Position numbers and translations under genes: made by a program | The notes under the pieces: generated by a model | Told to the model about the DNA's origin: nothing | What the model saw: the letters and a program-made list of their open reading frames with translations, nothing else | The model's database searches: none | In this document: positions 11,035-20,406 of the stretch, piece after piece | How positions within the stretch are numbered: the stretch's first letter is position 1 | Layout: every line of letters begins with the position of its first letter | Source: Lysobacter sp. ISL-50 | GTDB lineage: Bacteria > Pseudomonadota > Gammaproteobacteria > Xanthomonadales > Xanthomonadaceae | Direction of reading: 5' to 3' | Assembly (NCBI RefSeq): GCF_018612875.1 | Contig: NZ_JAGGRI010000007.1 | Coordinates: 1-64,000 of the forward strand | Length of the DNA: 64,000 bases

Positions 11035-12069
11035 TCAGTTCCAGCTCAACACGACCTTGCCCGCCTTGCCCGCTTCCATCAGGTCGAAGCCCTTCTGGAA
11101 ATCGTCGATCGGCAGCTGATGGGTCAGCACCTTGCCGAGCGGGAAACCGCCGAGCACCAGCTGGGTCATCTTGTACCAGGTCTCGTACATCTTGCGGCCG
11201 TAGATGCCGTGCAGGGTCAGGCCCTTGAAGATGATCTTGTCCCAGTCCGCGCCCGCGCCCTTGGGCATGATGCCGAGCATGGCGATCTTGCCGCCGTGGT
11301 ACATGCAGTCGAGCATGTCGTTGAACGCGCGCGGGTTGCCGCTCATTTCCAGGCCGACGTCGAAGCCTTCCATGTGCAGGTCGGCCATCACGTCCTTGAG
11401 CGACTGGTTGGCGACGTTGACCACGCGGGTGGCGCCCATGTCGGCGGCCAGTTTCAGGCGGAAATCGTTTACGTCGGTGACGACCACGTTGCGCGCGCCG
11501 ATGTGCTTGCAGATGCCGGCGGCGATGATGCCGATGGGGCCGGCGCCGGTGATCAGCACGTCTTCGCCGACCACGTCGAACTCCAGCGCGCAATGCGCGG
11601 CGTTGCCGTAGGGATCGAAGAACGCGGCCAGCTCGCTGGGGATCTGGTCCGGGATCGGCCACAGGTTGCTGGCCGGCATGACGATGTATTCGGCGAAGGC
11701 GCCGTTGCGGTTGACGCCGATGCCGGTGGTGTTCGGGCACAGGTGCTGGCGGCCGCCGCGGCAGTTGCGGCAATGGCCGCAGACGATATGGCCTTCGGCC
11801 GAAACGCGCTGGCCGGGACGGTAACCGACCACGCCGGGGCCGAGATCGACCACGCGGCCGACGAATTCATGCCCGATCACCAGGCCGGGCTTGATCGTGC
11901 GCTGGCTCCACTCGTCCCACAGGTAGATGTGCAGGTCGGTGCCGCAGATCGCGGTCTTTTCCAGCTTGATCAGCACCTCGTTCGGGCCGGGCACGGGCAC
12001 CGGCACTTCTTCCAGCCAGATGCCCTTGCCGGCTTCGCGCTTGACCAGGGCCTTCATCATTTGCGTCAT
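11035..12069 (-). CDS. tdh: L-threonine 3-dehydrogenase
   Basis: A 344-residue zinc-dependent medium-chain dehydrogenase. It oxidises L-threonine to 2-amino-3-ketobutyrate with NAD, feeding Kbl. Marks: catalytic-zinc motif [15 protein letters not shown], then GHEFVGRVV, the four-Cys structural zinc loop [15 protein letters not shown], and the NAD-binding [17 protein letters not shown]. The length and the CGTDLHIY signature are those of Tdh rather than other alcohol dehydrogenases. It starts with [10 protein letters not shown]; the second Met pair is a possible start four codons in. It is divergent from the first S46 peptidase across about 140 bp. Confidence 0.96.
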
Positions 12070-12207
12070 GGGACTCGATTACCTAGGGGCCGCGGCCGCG
12101 CCGGGCGGGAGGGAAGCGCGAATTATACGCCGCGACCCCGCCGGGGTTTGCCCGCGCCGGGCGGCTTGGCCTATCGTCGCGGCTTCCCGAATCCGTACGG
12201 AATGTCC

Positions 12208-14361
12208 ATGCGCCCCCGTGTGTTAGCCCTGTCCCTGGCGCTGTGCGCCACCGCCGCCCAGGCCGATGAAGGCATGTGGATGCCTTCGCAATTGCCCGAC
12301 ATCGCGCGCCAGCTGCGCGCGGCCGGGTTCAAGGGCGATCCGAGCGATCTGGCCGAGCTGACCCGCGCGCCGATGAACGCGGTGGTCAAGGTCGGCGGCG
12401 CGACCGGTTCGTTCGTGTCGTCCGAGGGGCTGGTGCTGACCAACCACCACGTCGCCTTCGGCGTGATCCAGTACAACTCCAAGCCCGACCGCGACCTGAT
12501 CGGCAACGGTTTCGTCGCCGCCGACCGCGCCGCCGAGCTGCCGGCCAATCCGGATTTCCGCGTGCTGGTGACGACCGGTTTCGACAAAGTCACCGATCGC
12601 ATCCTCAAGGACGCGCGCGGCAAGCACGGCCGCGCCTACTTCGACGCGGTGGACGCGGCGACCAAGGCGGTGGTGGCCGAGTGCGAACGCGAAGCCGGTT
12701 ATCGCTGCAGCGTCGCCAACATGTACTACGGCACCGATTTCTATCTGATCCGCCAGCTGGAGCTGCGCGATATCCGTCTGGTGTACGCGCCGCCCAACAG
12801 CATCGGCAACTACGGCGACGAGGTCGACAACTTCGTATGGCCGCGCCACAGCGGCGATTTCACCCTGCTGCGCGCCTACGTCGGCAAGGACGGCAAGCCG
12901 GCCGACTACTCGCCCGACAACGTGCCGTACACGCCGCCGGGGCATCTGCAGATTTCCACCGACCCGGTGCGCGAAGGCGACTACGCCATGCTGGCCGGTT
13001 ATCCGGGCGTGACCTTCCGCCACCGCATGGCGTCGGAGTTCGCGCAGCAGATCCAATGGCAGCTACCGTCGCGGGTGGCGCTGTACGGCGACATGATCAA
13101 GACCATCGACGCGGCCAGCGCGAGCGATGCCGAGGCCAAGGTGCGCTACGCCGCGCAGGTCGCCGGTTTCAAGAACACGCTCAAGCGCGCCCAGGGCGAA
13201 CTCGACGGCCTGCGCCGCAGCGACGCGGTGCGCGTGCGCGGCGCGGACGAGACGGCGATGCTGGCGTGGCTGGACACGCAGGCCGATGCGAAAGCGATCC
13301 GCGCCGATATCGACGCGGCGCAGAAGGTGCTCGATGCCGGCGCGGCGATGCGCGATCGCGATCAACTGCTCAGCGCGATCCGCGGCATGCCGCAGTTGCT
13401 CAACGCCGCGTTGACCGTACAGCGCCTGGCGCAGGAGCGCGCCCAGCCCGATGCGCAGCGCGAGTCGGGCTATCAGCAGCGCGACGAAGCGCTGATCGCC
13501 GGCAAGCTCAAGCAAGTGCAGCGCCGTTACGCGCCGCAGGTGGAAAAGGCGCTGCTGCTGGAGCTGCTGAGCCAGTACAAGGCGCTGCCGAAAGCGGCGC
13601 GAGTGGCCGAGTTCGACCGCGTGTTCGAAGGCGAGGATCGCGCCTCGCTGCAGCGCAACCTGGATGCCTTGTACGCCGGCACCAAACTCGGCGAGGAAGC
13701 CGCGCGCCTGCAGGCGATGAACGGCGACGCCAAGCAACTGCAGGCCAGCGACGACAGCCTGCTCAAGGCCGCCGCCGCGCTGCTGCCGGCGGTGCTGCGG
13801 ATCGAAGAGGAAAACAAGAGCCGCGAAGGCGAGCTGCTGCGTCTGCGTCCGGCCTACATGCGCGCGCTGATCGCGTTCCGCAAATCGCAGGGCCGCGCGG
13901 TGTATCCCGATGCCAACTCGACTTTGCGCGTGAGCTTCGGCGCGGTCAGCGCCATGGACCCGCGCGACGGCGTGCGCTATCGCCCGCTGACCACGGTGCA
14001 GGGCATCGTCGAGAAACACACCGGCGTCAAACCCTTCGACGCGCCGCAGGCCTTGCGCGATGCGATCGCCAAGGGCGATTTCGGCAGCACCGTCGATGCC
14101 GAGCTCAAGACCCAGACCGTCGATTTCCTGACCAACCTCGACACCACCGGTGGCAATTCCGGCTCGCCCGTGCTCGACGCCAACGGCAAGCTGATCGGCC
14201 TGAACTTCGACAGCAACTGGGAAGCGGTCAGCGCCAGCTGGATGTTCGATCCGCGTTACAAGCGCGCGATCCACGTCGATATGCGCTATCTGCGCTGGCT
14301 GCTGGCCAAGGTCTATCCGGCGCCGCAGCTGCTGCGGGAAATGAAGCTGCCGGCGCAGTGA
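12208..14361 (+). CDS. S46 family dipeptidyl-peptidase, copy 1 (Ser at the S1 position; DPP11-like)
   Basis: A 717-residue periplasmic S46 serine peptidase that removes dipeptides from peptide N-termini. Signal peptide at 1-19 (ending AQA-DEGMW). The catalytic triad by motif is His80 (TNHH), Asp217 (RHSGDF) and Ser651 (GGNSGSP). The residue 18 positions after the catalytic Ser, which sets S1 specificity in this family, is Ser669. Gly there is known for DPP7-type (hydrophobic P1) and Arg or Ser for DPP11-type (acidic P1), so this copy may prefer Asp/Glu. Two cysteines present in the next two copies (CTASF and NHHC) are both absent. The start at 12208 has GGA six bases upstream; the ATG at 12202 is too close to it. 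Confidence 0.92.
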   Translation: MRPRVLALSLALCATAAQADEGMWMPSQLPDIARQLRAAGFKGDPSDLAELTRAPMNAVVKVGGATGSFVSSEGLVLTNHHVAFGVIQYNSKPDRDLIGNGFVAADRAAELPANPDFRVLVTTGFDKVTDRILKDARGKHGRAYFDAVDAATKAVVAECEREAGYRCSVANMYYGTDFYLIRQLELRDIRLVYAPPNSIGNYGDEVDNFVWPRHSGDFTLLRAYVGKDGKPADYSPDNVPYTPPGHLQISTDPVREGDYAMLAGYPGVTFRHRMASEFAQQIQWQLPSRVALYGDMIKTIDAASASDAEAKVRYAAQVAGFKNTLKRAQGELDGLRRSDAVRVRGADETAMLAWLDTQADAKAIRADIDAAQKVLDAGAAMRDRDQLLSAIRGMPQLLNAALTVQRLAQERAQPDAQRESGYQQRDEALIAGKLKQVQRRYAPQVEKALLLELLSQYKALPKAARVAEFDRVFEGEDRASLQRNLDALYAGTKLGEEAARLQAMNGDAKQLQASDDSLLKAAAALLPAVLRIEEENKSREGELLRLRPAYMRALIAFRKSQGRAVYPDANSTLRVSFGAVSAMDPRDGVRYRPLTTVQGIVEKHTGVKPFDAPQALRDAIAKGDFGSTVDAELKTQTVDFLTNLDTTGGNSGSPVLDANGKLIGLNFDSNWEAVSASWMFDPRYKRAIHVDMRYLRWLLAKVYPAPQLLREMKLPAQ

Positions 14362-14629
14362 GCCCGTTCGCGGCGGCGGCCCGGGGACGGGTCGCCGCCG
14401 CGCGGATTTGTGATGCGCCGCACTCCCGAGCCGTATTCATCGCCGCGCCACGCCGCTTTTCGGCACGAAAGCCCTTTCTGATAAGGGCTTCGCGCCATCC
14501 GGGGGCAAGTGCGTTCGTGGCGGGGGCGGCATGATCGGGCTAGACTTTCCGGCCGATTTTGTTCGAGTCCAGGGCCGGGCCGATCCGTCCGAACCGATTC
14601 ATCGCCATTCATTGGGTAAGGGGAACACG
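14362..14629. other. Intergenic gap with two hairpins
   Basis: There is a GC-rich hairpin at 14369-14402 (arms CGCGGCGGCG / CGCCGCCGCG) just after the first S46 gene, and a second at 14469-14490 (AAGCCCTT / AAGGGCTT). Neither has a T-run, so neither is a standard terminator. The AAGGGG ribosome site for the next gene lies at about 14617. Confidence 0.45.
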
Positions 14630-16804
14630 ATGCGCTACACCGTATTAGCCGCCGCGGTCGCGGCAGGGACGCTGGCACTGGGCGTCGCGACCACGGCGCG
14701 CGCCGTCGAAGGCATGTGGGTGCCGCAGCAATTGCCGGAGATCTCCGCGCCGTTGAAGAAGGCCGGGCTCAAGCTCAACGCCAAGCAATTGGCCGACCTG
14801 ACCGGCGATCCGATGGGCGCGGTGGTCTCGCTGGGCGGCTGCACTGCCAGCTTCGTGTCCCCGCGCGGCCTGGTGGTGACCAATCACCACTGCGCCTACG
14901 GCGCGATCCAGCTCAACTCGACCGCGCAGAAGAACCTGATGCGCGACGGCTTCAACGCCGCCACGCCCGGCGAAGAATTGTCCGCTGGCCCGTCCTCGCG
15001 CATCTATGTGCTCGACTCGATCCAGGACGTGACCGCGCAGGTCAAGAGCGCGATCGACGAAGTGGTCGAGCCGATCGACCGTACCCACGCGCTGGAGACG
15101 ATTGAAAAGCGCCTGATCGCGTCGTGCGAAGCGCAGGCCGGCTACGGCTGCGAGCTGTACAGCTTCTTCGGCGGCACCACCTACCGCCTGTTCCGCCGCA
15201 TCGAGATCAAGGACGTGCGCCTGGTCTACGCGCCGCCCGGCAGCGTCGGCAACTACGGCGGCGAAGTGGACAACTGGATGTGGCCGCGCCACACCGGCGA
15301 CTTCTCGTTCTACCGCGCCTACGTCGGCAAGGACGGCAAGCCGGCCGAGTATTCCAAGGACAACGTCCCGTATCAGCCCAAGCGTTACCTCAAGCTCGCC
15401 GACAAGCCGCTGGGCGAAGGCGACTTCGTGATGGTCGCCGGTTACCCGGGCCGCACCAGCCGCTACGCGCTGGCCAGCGACTTCGACGCGACCGCGAACT
15501 GGACCTATCCGACCACCTCCGCGCACTACAGGAACCTGATCGCGCTGGTCGGGGAAACCGCGAAGAAAGATCCGGAAATCGGCGTGAAGTACGCCAGCTC
15601 CGTGCGCGGCTGGCAGAACACGATGAAGAACTACGACGGCCAGCTGGAAGGCTTCAAGCGCATCGGCGCGGCGCAGAAGAAGCGCGCCGACGAAGAGGCC
15701 GTGCTCGCATGGCTGCGCACGCGCGGCGCCCAGGGCGCGCCGGCGCTGGCCGCGCACGACAAGCTGGTGACGCTCGGCGAAAGCGCCATCGCCCATCGCC
15801 AGCGCGATTTCGTGTTCGGCCAGCTGCGCCGGGGCGGCGCGATCTCGGCGGCGAGCCAGCTGTATCGCTTCGCGCTGGAGCGCGACAAGCCCGATGCCGA
15901 GCGCGAGCCCGGTTATCAGCAGCGCGATCTGCCCTCGGTCAAGGCCTGGCTGGAGCAGATGGACCGCCGCTACGACCCGCGCATGGACCGCGAGCTGCAG
16001 GCGTACTGGCTGCGCGAATACGTGAAGCTGCCGGCCGGCGAGCGCGTGGCCGAACTCGATCGTTGGCTGGGCGGTTCCGACGAGAAGGCGATCAAGCGCG
16101 GCCTGGACAAGCTGGCCAAGACCAAGTTGGGCAACGCCAAGGAACGTCTGGCCCTGCTCGACGACAGCCGCGCGAGCCTGGACAAGAGCAAGGACCCGGC
16201 GATCCAGTTCGCCAAGGCCTTGATGCCGGCGGCGCTGCGCCTGGAGCAGGACGCGAAGATCATCGAAGGCGAGACCCTGACCGCGCGTCCGGCGTATCTG
16301 CAGGGCGTGATCGACTATCGCAAGAGCAAGAAGCAGTCGGTGTACCCGGATGCGAACTCGACCTTGCGCATCACCTTCGGCAACGTCAAGGCTTACACCA
16401 AACTCGACGGCAGCAAGCAGGCCGCGTTCACCAAGCTGGAAGAAGTCGCGGCCAAGGCCACCGGCCAGGAGCCGTTCGACGCGCCCGCGCCCTTGCTGGA
16501 AGCCATCGCCGACAAGCGTTACGGCGGCCTCGCCGACAAGCGTTTGAAGTCGGTGCCGGTGAATTTCCTCTCGGACCTGGACATCACCGGCGGCAACTCC
16601 GGCTCGCCCGTGCTCGACGGCGAAGGCAAGCTGGTGGGCCTGGCGTTCGACGGCAACTGGGAATCGGTGAGCTCGAACTGGCTGTTCGATCCGACCATGA
16701 CCCGCATGATCTCGGTCGATCAGCGCTACATGCGCTGGATCATGCAGGAAGTGTCCCCGGCGCCGCAGCTGCTGACCGAACTGGGCGTGCCGGCGAAGAA
16801 GTAA
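14630..16804 (+). CDS. S46 family dipeptidyl-peptidase, copy 2 (Gly at the S1 position; DPP7/DPP BII-like)
   Basis: A 724-residue periplasmic S46 peptidase with a signal peptide ending TARA-VEGMW. The triad positions His86, Asp224 and Ser657 coincide with those reported for the related enzyme DPP BII of Pseudoxanthomonas. The S1-defining residue is Gly675, which predicts cleavage after bulky hydrophobic P1 residues. The start at 14630 follows GGTAAGGGGAACACG; the upstream in-frame ATG at 14531 would bury the signal peptide. It shares with copy 3 the cysteines in CTASF and NHHC and a C-terminal WLFDP...DQRY block. It ends in a good terminator. Confidence 0.95.
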   Translation: MRYTVLAAAVAAGTLALGVATTARAVEGMWVPQQLPEISAPLKKAGLKLNAKQLADLTGDPMGAVVSLGGCTASFVSPRGLVVTNHHCAYGAIQLNSTAQKNLMRDGFNAATPGEELSAGPSSRIYVLDSIQDVTAQVKSAIDEVVEPIDRTHALETIEKRLIASCEAQAGYGCELYSFFGGTTYRLFRRIEIKDVRLVYAPPGSVGNYGGEVDNWMWPRHTGDFSFYRAYVGKDGKPAEYSKDNVPYQPKRYLKLADKPLGEGDFVMVAGYPGRTSRYALASDFDATANWTYPTTSAHYRNLIALVGETAKKDPEIGVKYASSVRGWQNTMKNYDGQLEGFKRIGAAQKKRADEEAVLAWLRTRGAQGAPALAAHDKLVTLGESAIAHRQRDFVFGQLRRGGAISAASQLYRFALERDKPDAEREPGYQQRDLPSVKAWLEQMDRRYDPRMDRELQAYWLREYVKLPAGERVAELDRWLGGSDEKAIKRGLDKLAKTKLGNAKERLALLDDSRASLDKSKDPAIQFAKALMPAALRLEQDAKIIEGETLTARPAYLQGVIDYRKSKKQSVYPDANSTLRITFGNVKAYTKLDGSKQAAFTKLEEVAAKATGQEPFDAPAPLLEAIADKRYGGLADKRLKSVPVNFLSDLDITGGNSGSPVLDGEGKLVGLAFDGNWESVSSNWLFDPTMTRMISVDQRYMRWIMQEVSPAPQLLTELGVPAKK

Positions 16805-16830
16805 GCGCCGCCGCATCGCGCGACAAGCGA

Positions 16831-16861
16831 ACGCCAGCCGGATTTCCGGCTGGCGTTTTTG
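16831..16861 (+). terminator. Rho-independent terminator after S46 copy 2
   Basis: Perfect 11-bp stem ACGCCAGCCGG / CCGGCTGGCGT (16831-16841, 16846-16856), ATTT loop, then a T-run. It makes one long transcript of copies 2 and 3 unlikely. Confidence 0.88.
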
Positions 16862-16930
16862 TTTGCGGACACCGGGTCGTTACTGCGCACAACAATCGCT
16901 CACGCCAATGCGTCCTCCATTTCACCGTGC

Positions 16931-16967
16931 TGTTCCCCCCCTTTGAAAAAGGGGGGCAGGGGGGATT
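16931..16967. repeat. Palindromic repeat, family B (CCCCCCTTTGAAAAAGG type)
   Basis: A hairpin with C-run and G-run arms around TTTGAAAAA, followed by GCAGGGGGGATT. The same unit recurs at 30371, 30454, 46323 and 46438. This is the only unpaired copy in the window. The rest of the gap 16862-17150 shows no gene. Confidence 0.8.
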
Positions 16968-17150
16968 CAGCTCTTCCTGCAAACGCTAACGAAATTTTAG
17001 CGTTACCCCTCCACACCCCCACAAAAACTGAGCGCAAGCTAAAACCCCACCCGCCATCCCCATGCCGATCCGGCCAGCTCTCGCTTCCGCCATGGCGTTC
17101 ACAGATTTCAACGGGCTAGACTCGACCTCCCGCGGACCCAGGACGTTTTG

Positions 17151-19361
17151 ATGCGATACACGGTGCTGGCCAGAGCCATGGCCATGACAGGGACGTTGCT
17201 GTGCGCGCTGGCCTGGCACGAGAGCGCGCAAGCGGTCGAAGGCATGTGGACACCCCAGCAATTGCCGGAACTGGCGTCCCAGCTCAAGCAGTCGGGCGCG
17301 CGCGCCACGCCCAAGCAACTGGCGCAATGGGCCGATCCGAAAGGCGATCCGCTCGGCGCGGTGGTGCCGCTGGGCGGCTGCACCGCCAGCTTCGTCTCGC
17401 CCAAGGGCCTGCTGCTGACCAACCACCATTGCGCGCTCGGCGCGATCGGGCTCAATTCCACCCCGCAACGCAATCTCTCGCGCGACGGCTTCAAGAGCGG
17501 CACCAACAACGAAGAAGTCTCGGCCGGGCCGAACGCGCGCATCTTCGTGCTCGACTCGGTCCAGGACGTCACCGCCAAAGTGCAGGCGGCGCTGAACACC
17601 GCCGCCGATCCGCTGGCGCGGATCGCCGCGCTGGACGCCTTGGAGCGGCAGTTGGTCGGCGATTGCGAAAAACAATCCGACTACGGCTGCCGCCTGTACA
17701 GCTACTCCGGCGGCAACCGCTACGAATTGCAGCGCAGCCTGGAAATCCGCGATCTGCGCCTGGTCTACGCGCCGCCGGAAGCGATCGGCAATTTCGGCGG
17801 CGAAAGCGAAAACTGGATGTGGCCGCGCCACAGCGGCGATTTCGCCTTCTACCGCGCCTACGTCGGCAAGGACGGCCGGCCGGCGCCGTATGCCATCGAC
17901 AACGTGCCGTATCAGCCCAAGCGCTGGCTCAAGATCGCCGACAAGCCGCTCGGCGCGGGCGATTTCATCATGCTCGCCGGCTTTCCTTCGCTGACCAACC
18001 GCTACGCCATGGCCGACGATTTCCAGGCCAACGCCGAGTGGACGTATCCCACCGTCGCCGCGCACTACAAGCGACTGGCCGCGCTGATCGATGCGGAAAG
18101 CCGCAGGAATCCGCAGATCGCGAGCAAGTACGCCACCACCCTGCGCGGCTGGCAGGGCGCGGCGAAGAATTACGAAAGCCAGATCGAGAGCATTCGCCGC
18201 GCCGGCACCACCCAGATCAAGCGCAACGAAGAAACCGAGCTGCTGCAATGGCTGCGCGGCAAGGGCGCCGCCGGCCAGGCCGCGTTGGCCGCGCACGCGC
18301 GGCTGGTCGAGCTGGGCCAGCAGGCGCGCGAGCAACGCGATCGCGATCTGGTCCTGGGCCAGTTGTCGGCGACGGGTTCGCTGGCCGCGGCTTCGCAGTT
18401 GTATCGCTCGGCGATCGAACGCGCCAAGCCCGAGGCGCAGCGCGAGAACGGGTATCGCGACCGCGATCGCGTCGCCTTCGAAAACGGCCTCAAGCAGATG
18501 GACCGGCGCACCGATCCGCGCATGGACCGGCAGTTGCAGAATTACTGGCTGCACGAATACGTCAAGTTGCCGAAAGAGCATCGCGTCGCCGCGGTCGATA
18601 CATGGCTGGAGGGCGACGACGAAAAGTCGATCAAGCGCGCGCTGGACCGCATCGCCAAATCGCGCTTGAACAATCCCGAGCAGCGCGCCAACTGGCTCAA
18701 GACCGATCGCGCCGGATTCGAGCAGAGCAAGGACGCGAGCAAGGACGGCGCGATTTCCTTCGCGGTCGCGATCATGCCGACCTTGCTGCAGATGGAGCAG
18801 GAAATCCGCGGCCGCGCCGGCGAGACCCTGCTGGTGCGGCCGGTGTACCTCAAGGCGCTGGCGGATTTCCGCAAGAGCGTGGGCAAGGTCGCCTATCCCG
18901 ACGCCAACGGTTCCTTGCGCGTCAGCTACGGCACCGTCACCCCGTACACGAAGGACAACGGCGTGCGCCAACTGCCGTTCACCCGCGTGGATGAAATCGC
19001 CGCGCGCAACACCGGCGCCGCGCCGTTCAATGCGCCGCAGGCCTTGCTCGATGCGGTCGCGGCCAAGCGCTACAGCGCGGCGCTGCTGGACAAGCGACTC
19101 GAATCGGTGCCGGTGAATTTCCTCGCCGACCTGGACATCAGCGGCGGCAATTCCGGATCGCCGGTGCTGGACGGGCAGGGCAAGCTGGCCGGCATCGCGT
19201 TCGACAACAACTGGGAGTCGGTGAGTTCCAGCTGGCTGTTCGATCCGGCGGCGACCCGCACGATCTCGGTCGATCAACGCTATTTGCGCTGGATCTTGCA
19301 GGAGGTGTTTCCGGCGCCGCGGTTGCTGGCGGAGATGGGGGTGCCGGCTTCGGGGAAGTGA
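17151..19361 (+). CDS. S46 family dipeptidyl-peptidase, copy 3 (Asn at the S1 position)
   Basis: A 736-residue periplasmic S46 peptidase with a signal peptide ending about SAQA-VEGMW. The triad by motif is His92 (TNHH), Asp230 (RHSGD) and Ser668 (GGNSGSP). The residue 18 after the catalytic Ser is Asn686, neither the Gly of DPP7 nor the Arg/Ser of DPP11, so its P1 preference cannot be assigned from known rules. The start at 17151 has AGGA 7 bases upstream; a TTG just before it is less likely. It is closest to copy 2 in sequence. Downstream lies a family-A repeat instead of a terminator. Confidence 0.93.
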   Translation: MRYTVLARAMAMTGTLLCALAWHESAQAVEGMWTPQQLPELASQLKQSGARATPKQLAQWADPKGDPLGAVVPLGGCTASFVSPKGLLLTNHHCALGAIGLNSTPQRNLSRDGFKSGTNNEEVSAGPNARIFVLDSVQDVTAKVQAALNTAADPLARIAALDALERQLVGDCEKQSDYGCRLYSYSGGNRYELQRSLEIRDLRLVYAPPEAIGNFGGESENWMWPRHSGDFAFYRAYVGKDGRPAPYAIDNVPYQPKRWLKIADKPLGAGDFIMLAGFPSLTNRYAMADDFQANAEWTYPTVAAHYKRLAALIDAESRRNPQIASKYATTLRGWQGAAKNYESQIESIRRAGTTQIKRNEETELLQWLRGKGAAGQAALAAHARLVELGQQAREQRDRDLVLGQLSATGSLAAASQLYRSAIERAKPEAQRENGYRDRDRVAFENGLKQMDRRTDPRMDRQLQNYWLHEYVKLPKEHRVAAVDTWLEGDDEKSIKRALDRIAKSRLNNPEQRANWLKTDRAGFEQSKDASKDGAISFAVAIMPTLLQMEQEIRGRAGETLLVRPVYLKALADFRKSVGKVAYPDANGSLRVSYGTVTPYTKDNGVRQLPFTRVDEIAARNTGAAPFNAPQALLDAVAAKRYSAALLDKRLESVPVNFLADLDISGGNSGSPVLDGQGKLAGIAFDNNWESVSSSWLFDPAATRTISVDQRYLRWILQEVFPAPRLLAEMGVPASGK

Positions 19362-19442
19362 TTGGCTTTTAGCGGGAAGTGAGGAGTGAGGAGTGAAGAA
19401 CGAGGCGTGAGGAACGAGTTGCGACGCAGGCGACGAAGTCTC

Positions 19443-19541
19443 TTGTGGGAGGGGCTTCAGCCCCGATGCTTTTCGATCCGAGTTCTGAGCACCTTCCAGC
19501 CCTGAGCGAAAAGCATCGGGGCTGAAGCCCCTCCTACAAAA
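19443..19541. repeat. Inverted pair of palindromic repeat, family A (GGAGGGGCTTCAGCCCC)
   Basis: Two copies of GGAGGGGCTTCAGCCCCGAT face each other, separated by about 45 bases. The whole element can fold into one long hairpin. Other copies are at 37497, 49149 and 51458. It fills the space between S46 copy 3 and the small secreted protein gene. Confidence 0.85.
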
Positions 19542-19614
19542 GACCTCGTGCAGCATTTATTCATCGCAAAAGATGGGCCGGCATTGCCGGCCCATTTTTT
19601 CTCGCGGGTTTCGA

Positions 19615-19848
19615 TCAGTCGCGCGGCGGCGGGCAGATCATGTGGCCCGAGCTGTACTTGGCGGTGCGCACACCCGACTCGGTGAGCACGCCGGCGCAGC
19701 TCAGCTCGGCCTGGCCGACGACATTGCCGGCGGCGTCGTAGTAGAAATAAAACTCGCCGATTTCATCCGGGCCCGGCGGACGGGCGAGGGCGACGGTGGC
19801 GACGAGGGCGGCGGCGAAACCGATACCGATGGCGAAAGACTTACGCAT
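19615..19848 (-). CDS. Small secreted protein, DUF6289-like, copy 1
   Basis: A 77-residue protein with a signal peptide (MRKSFAIGIGFAAALVATVALA). The mature part is about 55 residues with YFYYDAAGNVVGQ, then two cysteines (LSCAG and MICPPP) probably bridged. It resembles the 75-residue protein encoded 330 bp upstream (YTYYDANGSVVGQ, HCDGT, YYICDPEP), so the two are tandem paralogs. The YYDA-GNVVGQ motif recalls small DUF6289 proteins; that label is from memory. GGAG-like bases precede the ATG. Function unknown. Confidence 0.75.
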   Translation of the reverse strand: MRKSFAIGIGFAAALVATVALARPPGPDEIGEFYFYYDAAGNVVGQAELSCAGVLTESGVRTAKYSSGHMICPPPRD

Positions 19849-20178
19849 GGCGAACTCCTGTCTCTAAGTGGCGAAAGCGGGATGTCCGTTGCGGCGAAGG
19901 CCGCGATGCGGACGGTGGCTGGTTCGATAGCGCGGCGCGGCTCGCGTCCGGCGTCGCTCACGTCGTGGCGAATCGCGCGGTGCGGCTATCGTTCAAGCCG
20001 GTGTTGCGTTTGCTGCTACGGCTGCATCGTGTGCATCAGGCGACGGGGCGTTGCGGACCGGTCTGGATCGTGCCGGACTGACCGGTGTCGCGACGCGCTC
20101 GAACGCGCGATGCGCGGAAGCGACATTTCGGACCGGCATCGCGCGCTGCGTCAGCAATGCGGCGCCGATCCGCGCCGA
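19849..20178. other. Gap between the two small paralogs
   Basis: I see no third copy or other gene here. The sequence upstream of the first small gene ends in an A/G-rich ribosome-site region on the minus strand. No terminator-like hairpin is obvious. Confidence 0.4.
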
Positions 20179-20406
20179 TCACGGTTCCGGATCGCAGATG
20201 TAGTAGCCGACGCCGTAATTCTTGGTGGCCTTGCCCCAGAACTCGGTCGTGCCGTCGCAGTGGATGGAGGATTGTCCGACCACCGAACCGTTGGCGTCGT
20301 AGTACGTGTAGATCTGGCCCGGACCGGTGGGACCGATCGCGGCGACCGCGGCGCCGACCGCGGCGATCGCCGCCAAGCCGAGCGCCAGAGCGAGTTTCTT
20401 GCGCAT
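20179..20406 (-). CDS. Small secreted protein, DUF6289-like, copy 2
   Basis: A 75-residue protein with a signal peptide (MRKKLALALGLAAIAAVGAAVA) and a mature part of about 50 residues. It carries YTYYDANGSVVGQ, then HCDG and YYICDPEP, so it shares the motif order and two cysteines of the neighbour at 19615. A good purine-rich ribosome site (AGAGAGA on the minus strand) lies just upstream. Likely periplasmic or secreted; function unknown. Confidence 0.75.
   Translation of the reverse strand: MRKKLALALGLAAIAAVGAAVAAIGPTGPGQIYTYYDANGSVVGQSSIHCDGTTEFWGKATKNYGVGYYICDPEP

Follow-up and report, generated by a model that had tools for sequence, protein, structure and literature searches.

S46 enzymes supply Gram-negative bacteria with dipeptides and are of interest as drug targets. 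In the accessible parts of three reports (PMC8041751, PMC6753110, and PMC8048996), the S1-specificity residue, which follows the catalytic Ser by 18 positions, is Gly in DPP7s and Arg or Ser in DPP11s, and Thr650 and Asn670 of DPP11s are set against Ile and Ala in DPP7s. The available text of PMC5460201 reports that Asn330 of DAP BII, the "N-anchor," sets dipeptidyl specificity. In the sections at hand of PMC8041751, Asn328 of SmDPP7 is counted with Asn213, Trp214, and Asp672 as the residues of the substrate N terminus, and Asn330 of DAP BII is taken there as its equivalent. Asn333 of PgDPP11 is listed likewise in the part seen of PMC6753110, where such residues are called essential for exopeptidase activity. 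In acylpeptidyl oligopeptidase (AOP) from Porphyromonas gingivalis, the N-anchor region has a more open site that takes varied N-terminal groups, according to the accessible text of PMC8048996. AOP is a different enzyme from the S46 peptidases, and we use it as an analogy to the protein described below, with no claim of homology.

We analyzed a window of 64,000 nucleotides from Lysobacter sp. ISL-50, in which a sequence-only reading had proposed three neighboring S46 peptidases, called here S46a, S46b, and S46c (Table 1). This proposal was borne out, since all three ORFs are intact and match PF10459 nearly end to end (752.6, 760.4, and 654 bits, respectively, against a cut-off of 22), covering profile positions 1-697, 3-697, and 3-697 out of 698. 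They are the sole S46 matches in the source genome. The start of S46b was taken as the ATG at 14630, its frame opening further upstream in the ORF listing. The NCBIfam DPP7 equivalog NF053519, which requires >1200 bits, scored 372.6 bits with S46a, 400.8 with S46b, and 315 with S46c. S46b and S46c are 60% identical, compared to 46% for S46a and S46b and 42% for S46a and S46c. The His-Asp-Ser triad of clan PA is present in each protein, and the three N termini resemble signal peptides as judged by eye. All three are probably secreted, periplasmic S46 serine peptidases.

Table 1. Coordinates of the three S46 genes and of selected codons and elements in the window
Feature	Position	Strand	Description	Basis
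S46a	12208..14361	+	717 aa, Ser-type DPP11-like; Thr646, Asn666, Ser669 in S1; N-anchor Asn323 present; triad His81-Asp217-Ser651	PF10459 E 7e-226; residues by alignment
S46b	14630..16804	+	724 aa, DPP7-like (DAP BII type); Ile652, Ala672, Gly675; N-anchor Asn330; triad His87-Asp224-Ser657	PF10459 E 3e-228; phmmer vs DAP BII 1064 bits
S46c	17151..19361	+	736 aa, DPP7-derived paralog; Ile663, Ala683, Asn686, Ser694, Thr704; Gly336 in N-anchor place; triad His93-Asp230-Ser668	PF10459 E 5e-196; model pLDDT 93.9
S46a Ser669 codon	14212-14214	+	residue 18 after catalytic Ser	
S46b Gly675 codon	16652-16654	+	residue 18 after catalytic Ser	
S46c Asn686 codon AAC	19206..19208	+	residue 18 after catalytic Ser668	
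S46c catalytic Ser668 codon	19152..19154	+		alignment
S46c Gly336 codon GGC	18156..18158	+	place of N-anchor Asn330 (DAP BII numbering)	
S46c Glu220 codon	17808..17810	+	adjoins clamp residues Asn221-Trp222; column Asp in 286/288, Glu solely in the two Asn-type S46c	
S46c Ser280 codon	17988..17990	+	column Gly in 275/275 non-S46c; Ser or Ala in 12/13 S46c	
Terminator-like hairpin between S46b and S46c	16829..16858	+	13 pairs, T-rich tail; longest stem in consensus-scan list	

A consensus scan of positions 12000-20000 returned 10 terminator-like hairpins against a shuffle mean of 7.0. The hairpin between S46b and S46c suggests that S46c may have a separate transcript; no promoter-like site was found. 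Between S46c and serA lies a pair of small DUF6289 proteins (19618-19848 and 20182-20406 of the window, both on the - strand; E 4.7e-07 and 2.8e-10), which look secreted by eye and are encoded on the strand opposite to S46c.

The sequence-only reading had placed Ser669, Gly675, and Asn686 at the S1-specificity position, and the alignment reads exactly so. The rule it quoted, Gly for DPP7 and Arg or Ser for DPP11, agrees with the accessible text of PMC8041751 and PMC8048996. The three positions are also equivalent: the phmmer alignment of S46c with DAP BII is ungapped there, the Arg of structure 4y06 (the G675R variant) lies opposite Asn686, and the S46c model superposes on 4y06 with an rmsd of 1.2 Å over 696 residues. 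S46a has Ser at 675 (DAP BII numbering) together with Thr652 and Asn672, as in Ser-type DPP11s, and S46b has Gly at 675 with Ile652 and Ala672, as in DPP7s. By the published residue rule, S46a is thus a predicted Ser-type DPP11 (acidic P1) and S46b a predicted DPP7 (hydrophobic P1), an ordinary pair. In its own numbering, the S46a set of Thr646, Asn666, and Ser669 is that given for Ser-type ("Shewanella-type") DPP11s such as SmDPP11 in the part seen of PMC6753110, and S46b is like DAP BII from Pseudoxanthomonas mexicana and DPP7 from Stenotrophomonas maltophilia (structures 3wol, 4y06, and 7dkb) at the three rule columns.

S46c falls in neither class. It departs from the DPP7s by Asn686 at column 675, though Ile663 and Ala683 fit, and from the Ser-type DPP11s by the same Asn686, by Ile663 and Ala683 in place of Thr and Asn, and by the missing N-anchor. 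It resembles DAP BII in fold (58-59% identity in structural alignments), in its triad, and at Ile652/Ala672, but Asn330 is missing, Gly675 is replaced by Asn (in most orthologs, by Ser), and Ser694 and Thr704 take the places of Asn683 and Met693, where S46b also has Asn and Met. In most S46c orthologs, columns 675, 682, and 683 read Ser, Ala, and Ser, as they do in S46a.

The sequence-only reading stressed that Asn is not covered by the known rule. Asn indeed fits none of Gly, Arg, and Ser, but it is not central to S46c, being the state of 2 of 14 orthologs (those of the window and of genome G009), whereas the other 12 have Ser. The two Asn-type proteins form one nested pair in the tree. At this column, the codon is GGC in S46b of all seven genomes listed, AGC in Ser-type S46c, and AAC in Asn-type S46c, so that the path from Gly to Ser to Asn takes one base change per step. 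Asn686 is a minor, late change. Asn as the marker of a new subfamily was ruled out, as only the S46c proteins of the window and G009 carry it. An exact DNA-motif scan of genome contigs for Phe-Asp-Asn-Asn-Trp-Glu-x-Val (middle base of x, C or G) hit 7 stretches, and no S46 match at E 1e-5 was seen in any of them; the search may have left out the window's genome or its near kin, and Asn in other sequence settings would escape it.

We ran the survey of this position in homologs that had been suggested and found Gly in 179, Ser in 67, Met in 20, Arg in 20, and Asn in 2 of 288 distinct S46 proteins. In this set, 224 proteins came from searches centered on groups to which the window belongs, 63 were drawn from the phylum that includes a Flavobacteriaceae record, and a Phycisphaerae record contributed one. 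Its loci were best matches or were hand-picked from match tables, and it is therefore a non-random sample. Frames that lacked the His and Ser motifs, were shorter than 580 aa, or were longer than 860 aa were dropped, and rows with identical last 540 residues were merged; stricter motifs gave 214 and then 255 proteins with an unchanged outcome. Met at the specificity column was found on several pocket backgrounds, residue 652 being Ile or Val. Nine of these proteins were placed on trees, where they require five changes. Met-type loci include L042, L051, L111, L114, L129, L135, L216, and L222, among others. In addition, the Thr/Asn pair is missing from three proteins with Ser that are not S46c. 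Given these Met proteins and the occurrence of Ser on DPP7-type pockets, the one-residue rule fails to cover S46 diversity in the surveyed genomes.

A stronger and more unusual feature of S46c than Asn686 is the loss of the N-anchor, S46a and S46b being ordinary. The alignment pairs Asn330 of DAP BII with Gly336 of S46c in a region free of gaps. Across the 288 proteins, this column is Asn in 275/275 other S46 proteins and Gly in 13/13 distinct S46c, all of which have Gly-Ala-Ala at this place. It is the sole column wholly lost by S46c among the 25 that are invariant in the other 275 proteins, and it remains the sole total loss among 41 columns at 98% conservation and 49 at 95%, as it was among 73 columns at 95% in the earlier set of 214 proteins. 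The change from Asn (AAC) to Gly (GGC) takes two base changes. The clamp formed by Asn215, Trp216 (or Phe/Tyr), Asn330, and Asp674 is complete in S46a, with Phe at 216, and in S46b, with Trp, whereas S46c keeps Asn221, Trp222, and Asp685 and has Gly336 for Asn330. The triad columns do not vary in any of the 288 proteins, nor do those of Asn215 and Asp674. At the Gly274 column, which does not vary in the other S46 proteins, 12 of the 13 S46c have Ser or Ala, and at the Asp214 column Glu is confined to the two Asn-type S46c. By fold and triad S46c is an S46 peptidase, yet in the alignment it lacks the N-anchor feature of the characterized dipeptidyl peptidases.

A TNHHC-to-TNQHC change in S46c of three genomes (G003, G004, and G011; loci L063, L064, and L070) was considered as a loss of the catalytic His and was ruled out, since the changed residue is the first, non-catalytic His and the His beside Cys is invariant in 288/288 proteins.

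As a control, 52 clades of 8-30 proteins, many of them nested, were drawn from a FastTree tree of the 288 proteins. Four overlapped S46c, and 1 of the 48 others had wholly lost an invariant column, which shows that such a loss is rare, yet not unique to S46c. That clade consists of eight proteins of the Flavobacteriaceae-centered set, with His for the invariant Phe673, an S2 residue. Among the loci of these proteins is L277, a three-gene S46 array. In the accessible parts of the S46 literature, we found no N-anchor mutant. Likewise, among the titles and abstract openings listed, none described an S46 peptidase without the N-anchor, although one may still be published.

A first structure model of S46c, built from 15 sequences, was poor (pLDDT 55.6) and was set aside. 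The model from 121 sequences had a mean pLDDT of 93.9 and a pTM of 0.92, and it superposed on dipeptide-bound DAP BII with an rmsd of 1.2-1.3 Å, versus 2.2-2.4 Å for the free form. Gly336 lies within a predicted helix (residues 328-351). As this helix is predicted with a normal fold, no gross opening is visible in the model, which carries no information on substrate register.

Across the genus, S46a and S46b were found in 20/20 genomes searched, that of the window included, and S46c in 14/20, always adjoining S46b. The gene order is tdh, S46a, S46b, S46c, serA. Five genomes lack S46c and have serA 1.1-1.6 kb after S46b, and in a sixth (G002) the contig ends just past S46b, so that S46c is missing from 5 of 19 assessable genomes. 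The 14 S46c proteins amount to 13 distinct ones (those of G007 and G008 are identical), and a search for internal stops in the 14 matches found none. In a family-wide search of 247 genomes, S46c matches with at least 77% identity all fell in this genus, and the next best among the matches listed had 65% identity and Gly; up to four or three candidates were scored per genome, and the absence of S46c outside the genus refers to the top of the ranked list. By the NG86 method, dN/dS was 0.046-0.213 for S46c (nine non-independent genome pairs), 0.033-0.266 for S46b, and 0.073-0.200 for S46a without the near-identical G007/G008 pair, which gave 0.494. S46c forms one clade (support, 100/100) among DPP7s from the same bacterial family as the window, on a long stem of 0.36 and 0.41 changes per column in two trees. 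Support beside this stem is low, and a single clade of S46c with four S46b of the genus was not rejected (p-AU 0.387). For S46c, then, the alignments show the loss of a residue in a conserved gene with low dN/dS, and the model shows a predicted fold that is kept.

In some genomes of the genus, additional sequence lies between S46a and S46b: a gene with Peptidase_M66 and TagA matches in G003 (L063:10046-12757, +), a PAAR-motif protein in G017 (L073:10327-11688, -), and a similar 2.4-kb gap in G019. Three-gene S46 arrays also occur in other genera of the same family (L129 of G072, G036:C3:101742-108245, and G022:C24:30497-37028) and in the Flavobacteriaceae-centered set (L276-L278 of G1164, G1211, and G1199). 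In the L129 array, a Met type stands with a Thr-Leu-Gly type and with a Ser type that has Thr/His. In G154 and G203 (genus code g17; L243 and L244), only short, remnant-like C-terminal S46 matches were found, in frames of 114 and 133 aa.

The idea of a diversified three-gene module, put forward from the window's sequence, is supported by the three S1 signatures, the low dN/dS of each gene, and the synteny kept across the genus. As a whole, that interpretation stands only in part, as it overlooked the loss of the N-anchor in S46c, which touches the dipeptidyl mode itself.

We propose that S46c was born of a DPP7 duplication, most simply at the base of the genus or shortly before. Its triad, its predicted fold, and the substrate N-terminus residues Asn221, Trp222, and Asp685 are kept. 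The fourth such residue, the helical-domain N-anchor, has been lost through the change of Asn to Gly336 within the conserved Gly-Ala-Ala, and Ser or Asn stands on the S1 wall. S46c would be catalytically active, but its helical domain would no longer grip the amino end of the substrate, which would loosen the strict two-residue register. The enzyme would then measure two residues from the free N terminus less strictly, and substrates with a longer or modified N-terminal part may be accepted, or the register of the cut may differ. Its P1 range would be narrower than that of S46b or more polar. Since three of the four N-terminus residues are kept, dipeptidyl release could persist with weaker affinity. 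We give this reading as a whole, namely, an active secreted S46c with a loosened dipeptide ruler and an altered S1 pocket, its function being deduced from published structures, a probability of roughly 0.55. In its boldest form, S46c would be the first recognized S46 lineage that is not strictly dipeptidyl, the N-anchor loss having made a DPP7 tri- or oligopeptidyl or active on N-blocked peptides, with DPP7 and DPP11 alongside for dipeptides; we advance this version tentatively.

The main rival explanation holds that S46c is still an ordinary dipeptidyl peptidase in which P1 preference alone has shifted, through the Ser or Asn of the S1 wall, as in the sequence-only reading, and that the enzyme tolerates the loss of its N-anchor. 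The retained fold, triad, and Asn221, Trp222, and Asp685 are consistent with this explanation, as are S1 columns 675, 683, and 693, all unlike those of S46b, and columns 675, 682, and 683 of most Ser-type S46c, which equal those of S46a. However, the single invariant column that was wholly lost in the S46c clade is the N-anchor and no S1 residue, and Asn, present in 2/14 orthologs, is unable to define the role of S46c. We consider a mere shift in P1 preference possible but rather doubtful. Alternatively, S46c could be weak or non-catalytic, either a peptide-binding or regulatory partner or a gene heading for loss. The intact triad in 13/13 distinct copies, the dN/dS of 0.046-0.213, and the stop-free frames in 14/14 matches argue against this alternative and make it improbable in our view, even though the length of its stem (0.36 and 0.41 changes per column), the absence from 5/19 assessable genomes, and the loss of a binding residue, the N-anchor, would suit it.

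For the S46 family, one-residue naming as DPP7 or DPP11 breaks down when Ser, Asn, or Met stands on a DPP7-like pocket. One Asn in the helical domain has served to explain the dipeptide mode of the family, and S46c, a natural and conserved paralog without exactly that Asn, would provide a ready-made test of this explanation.
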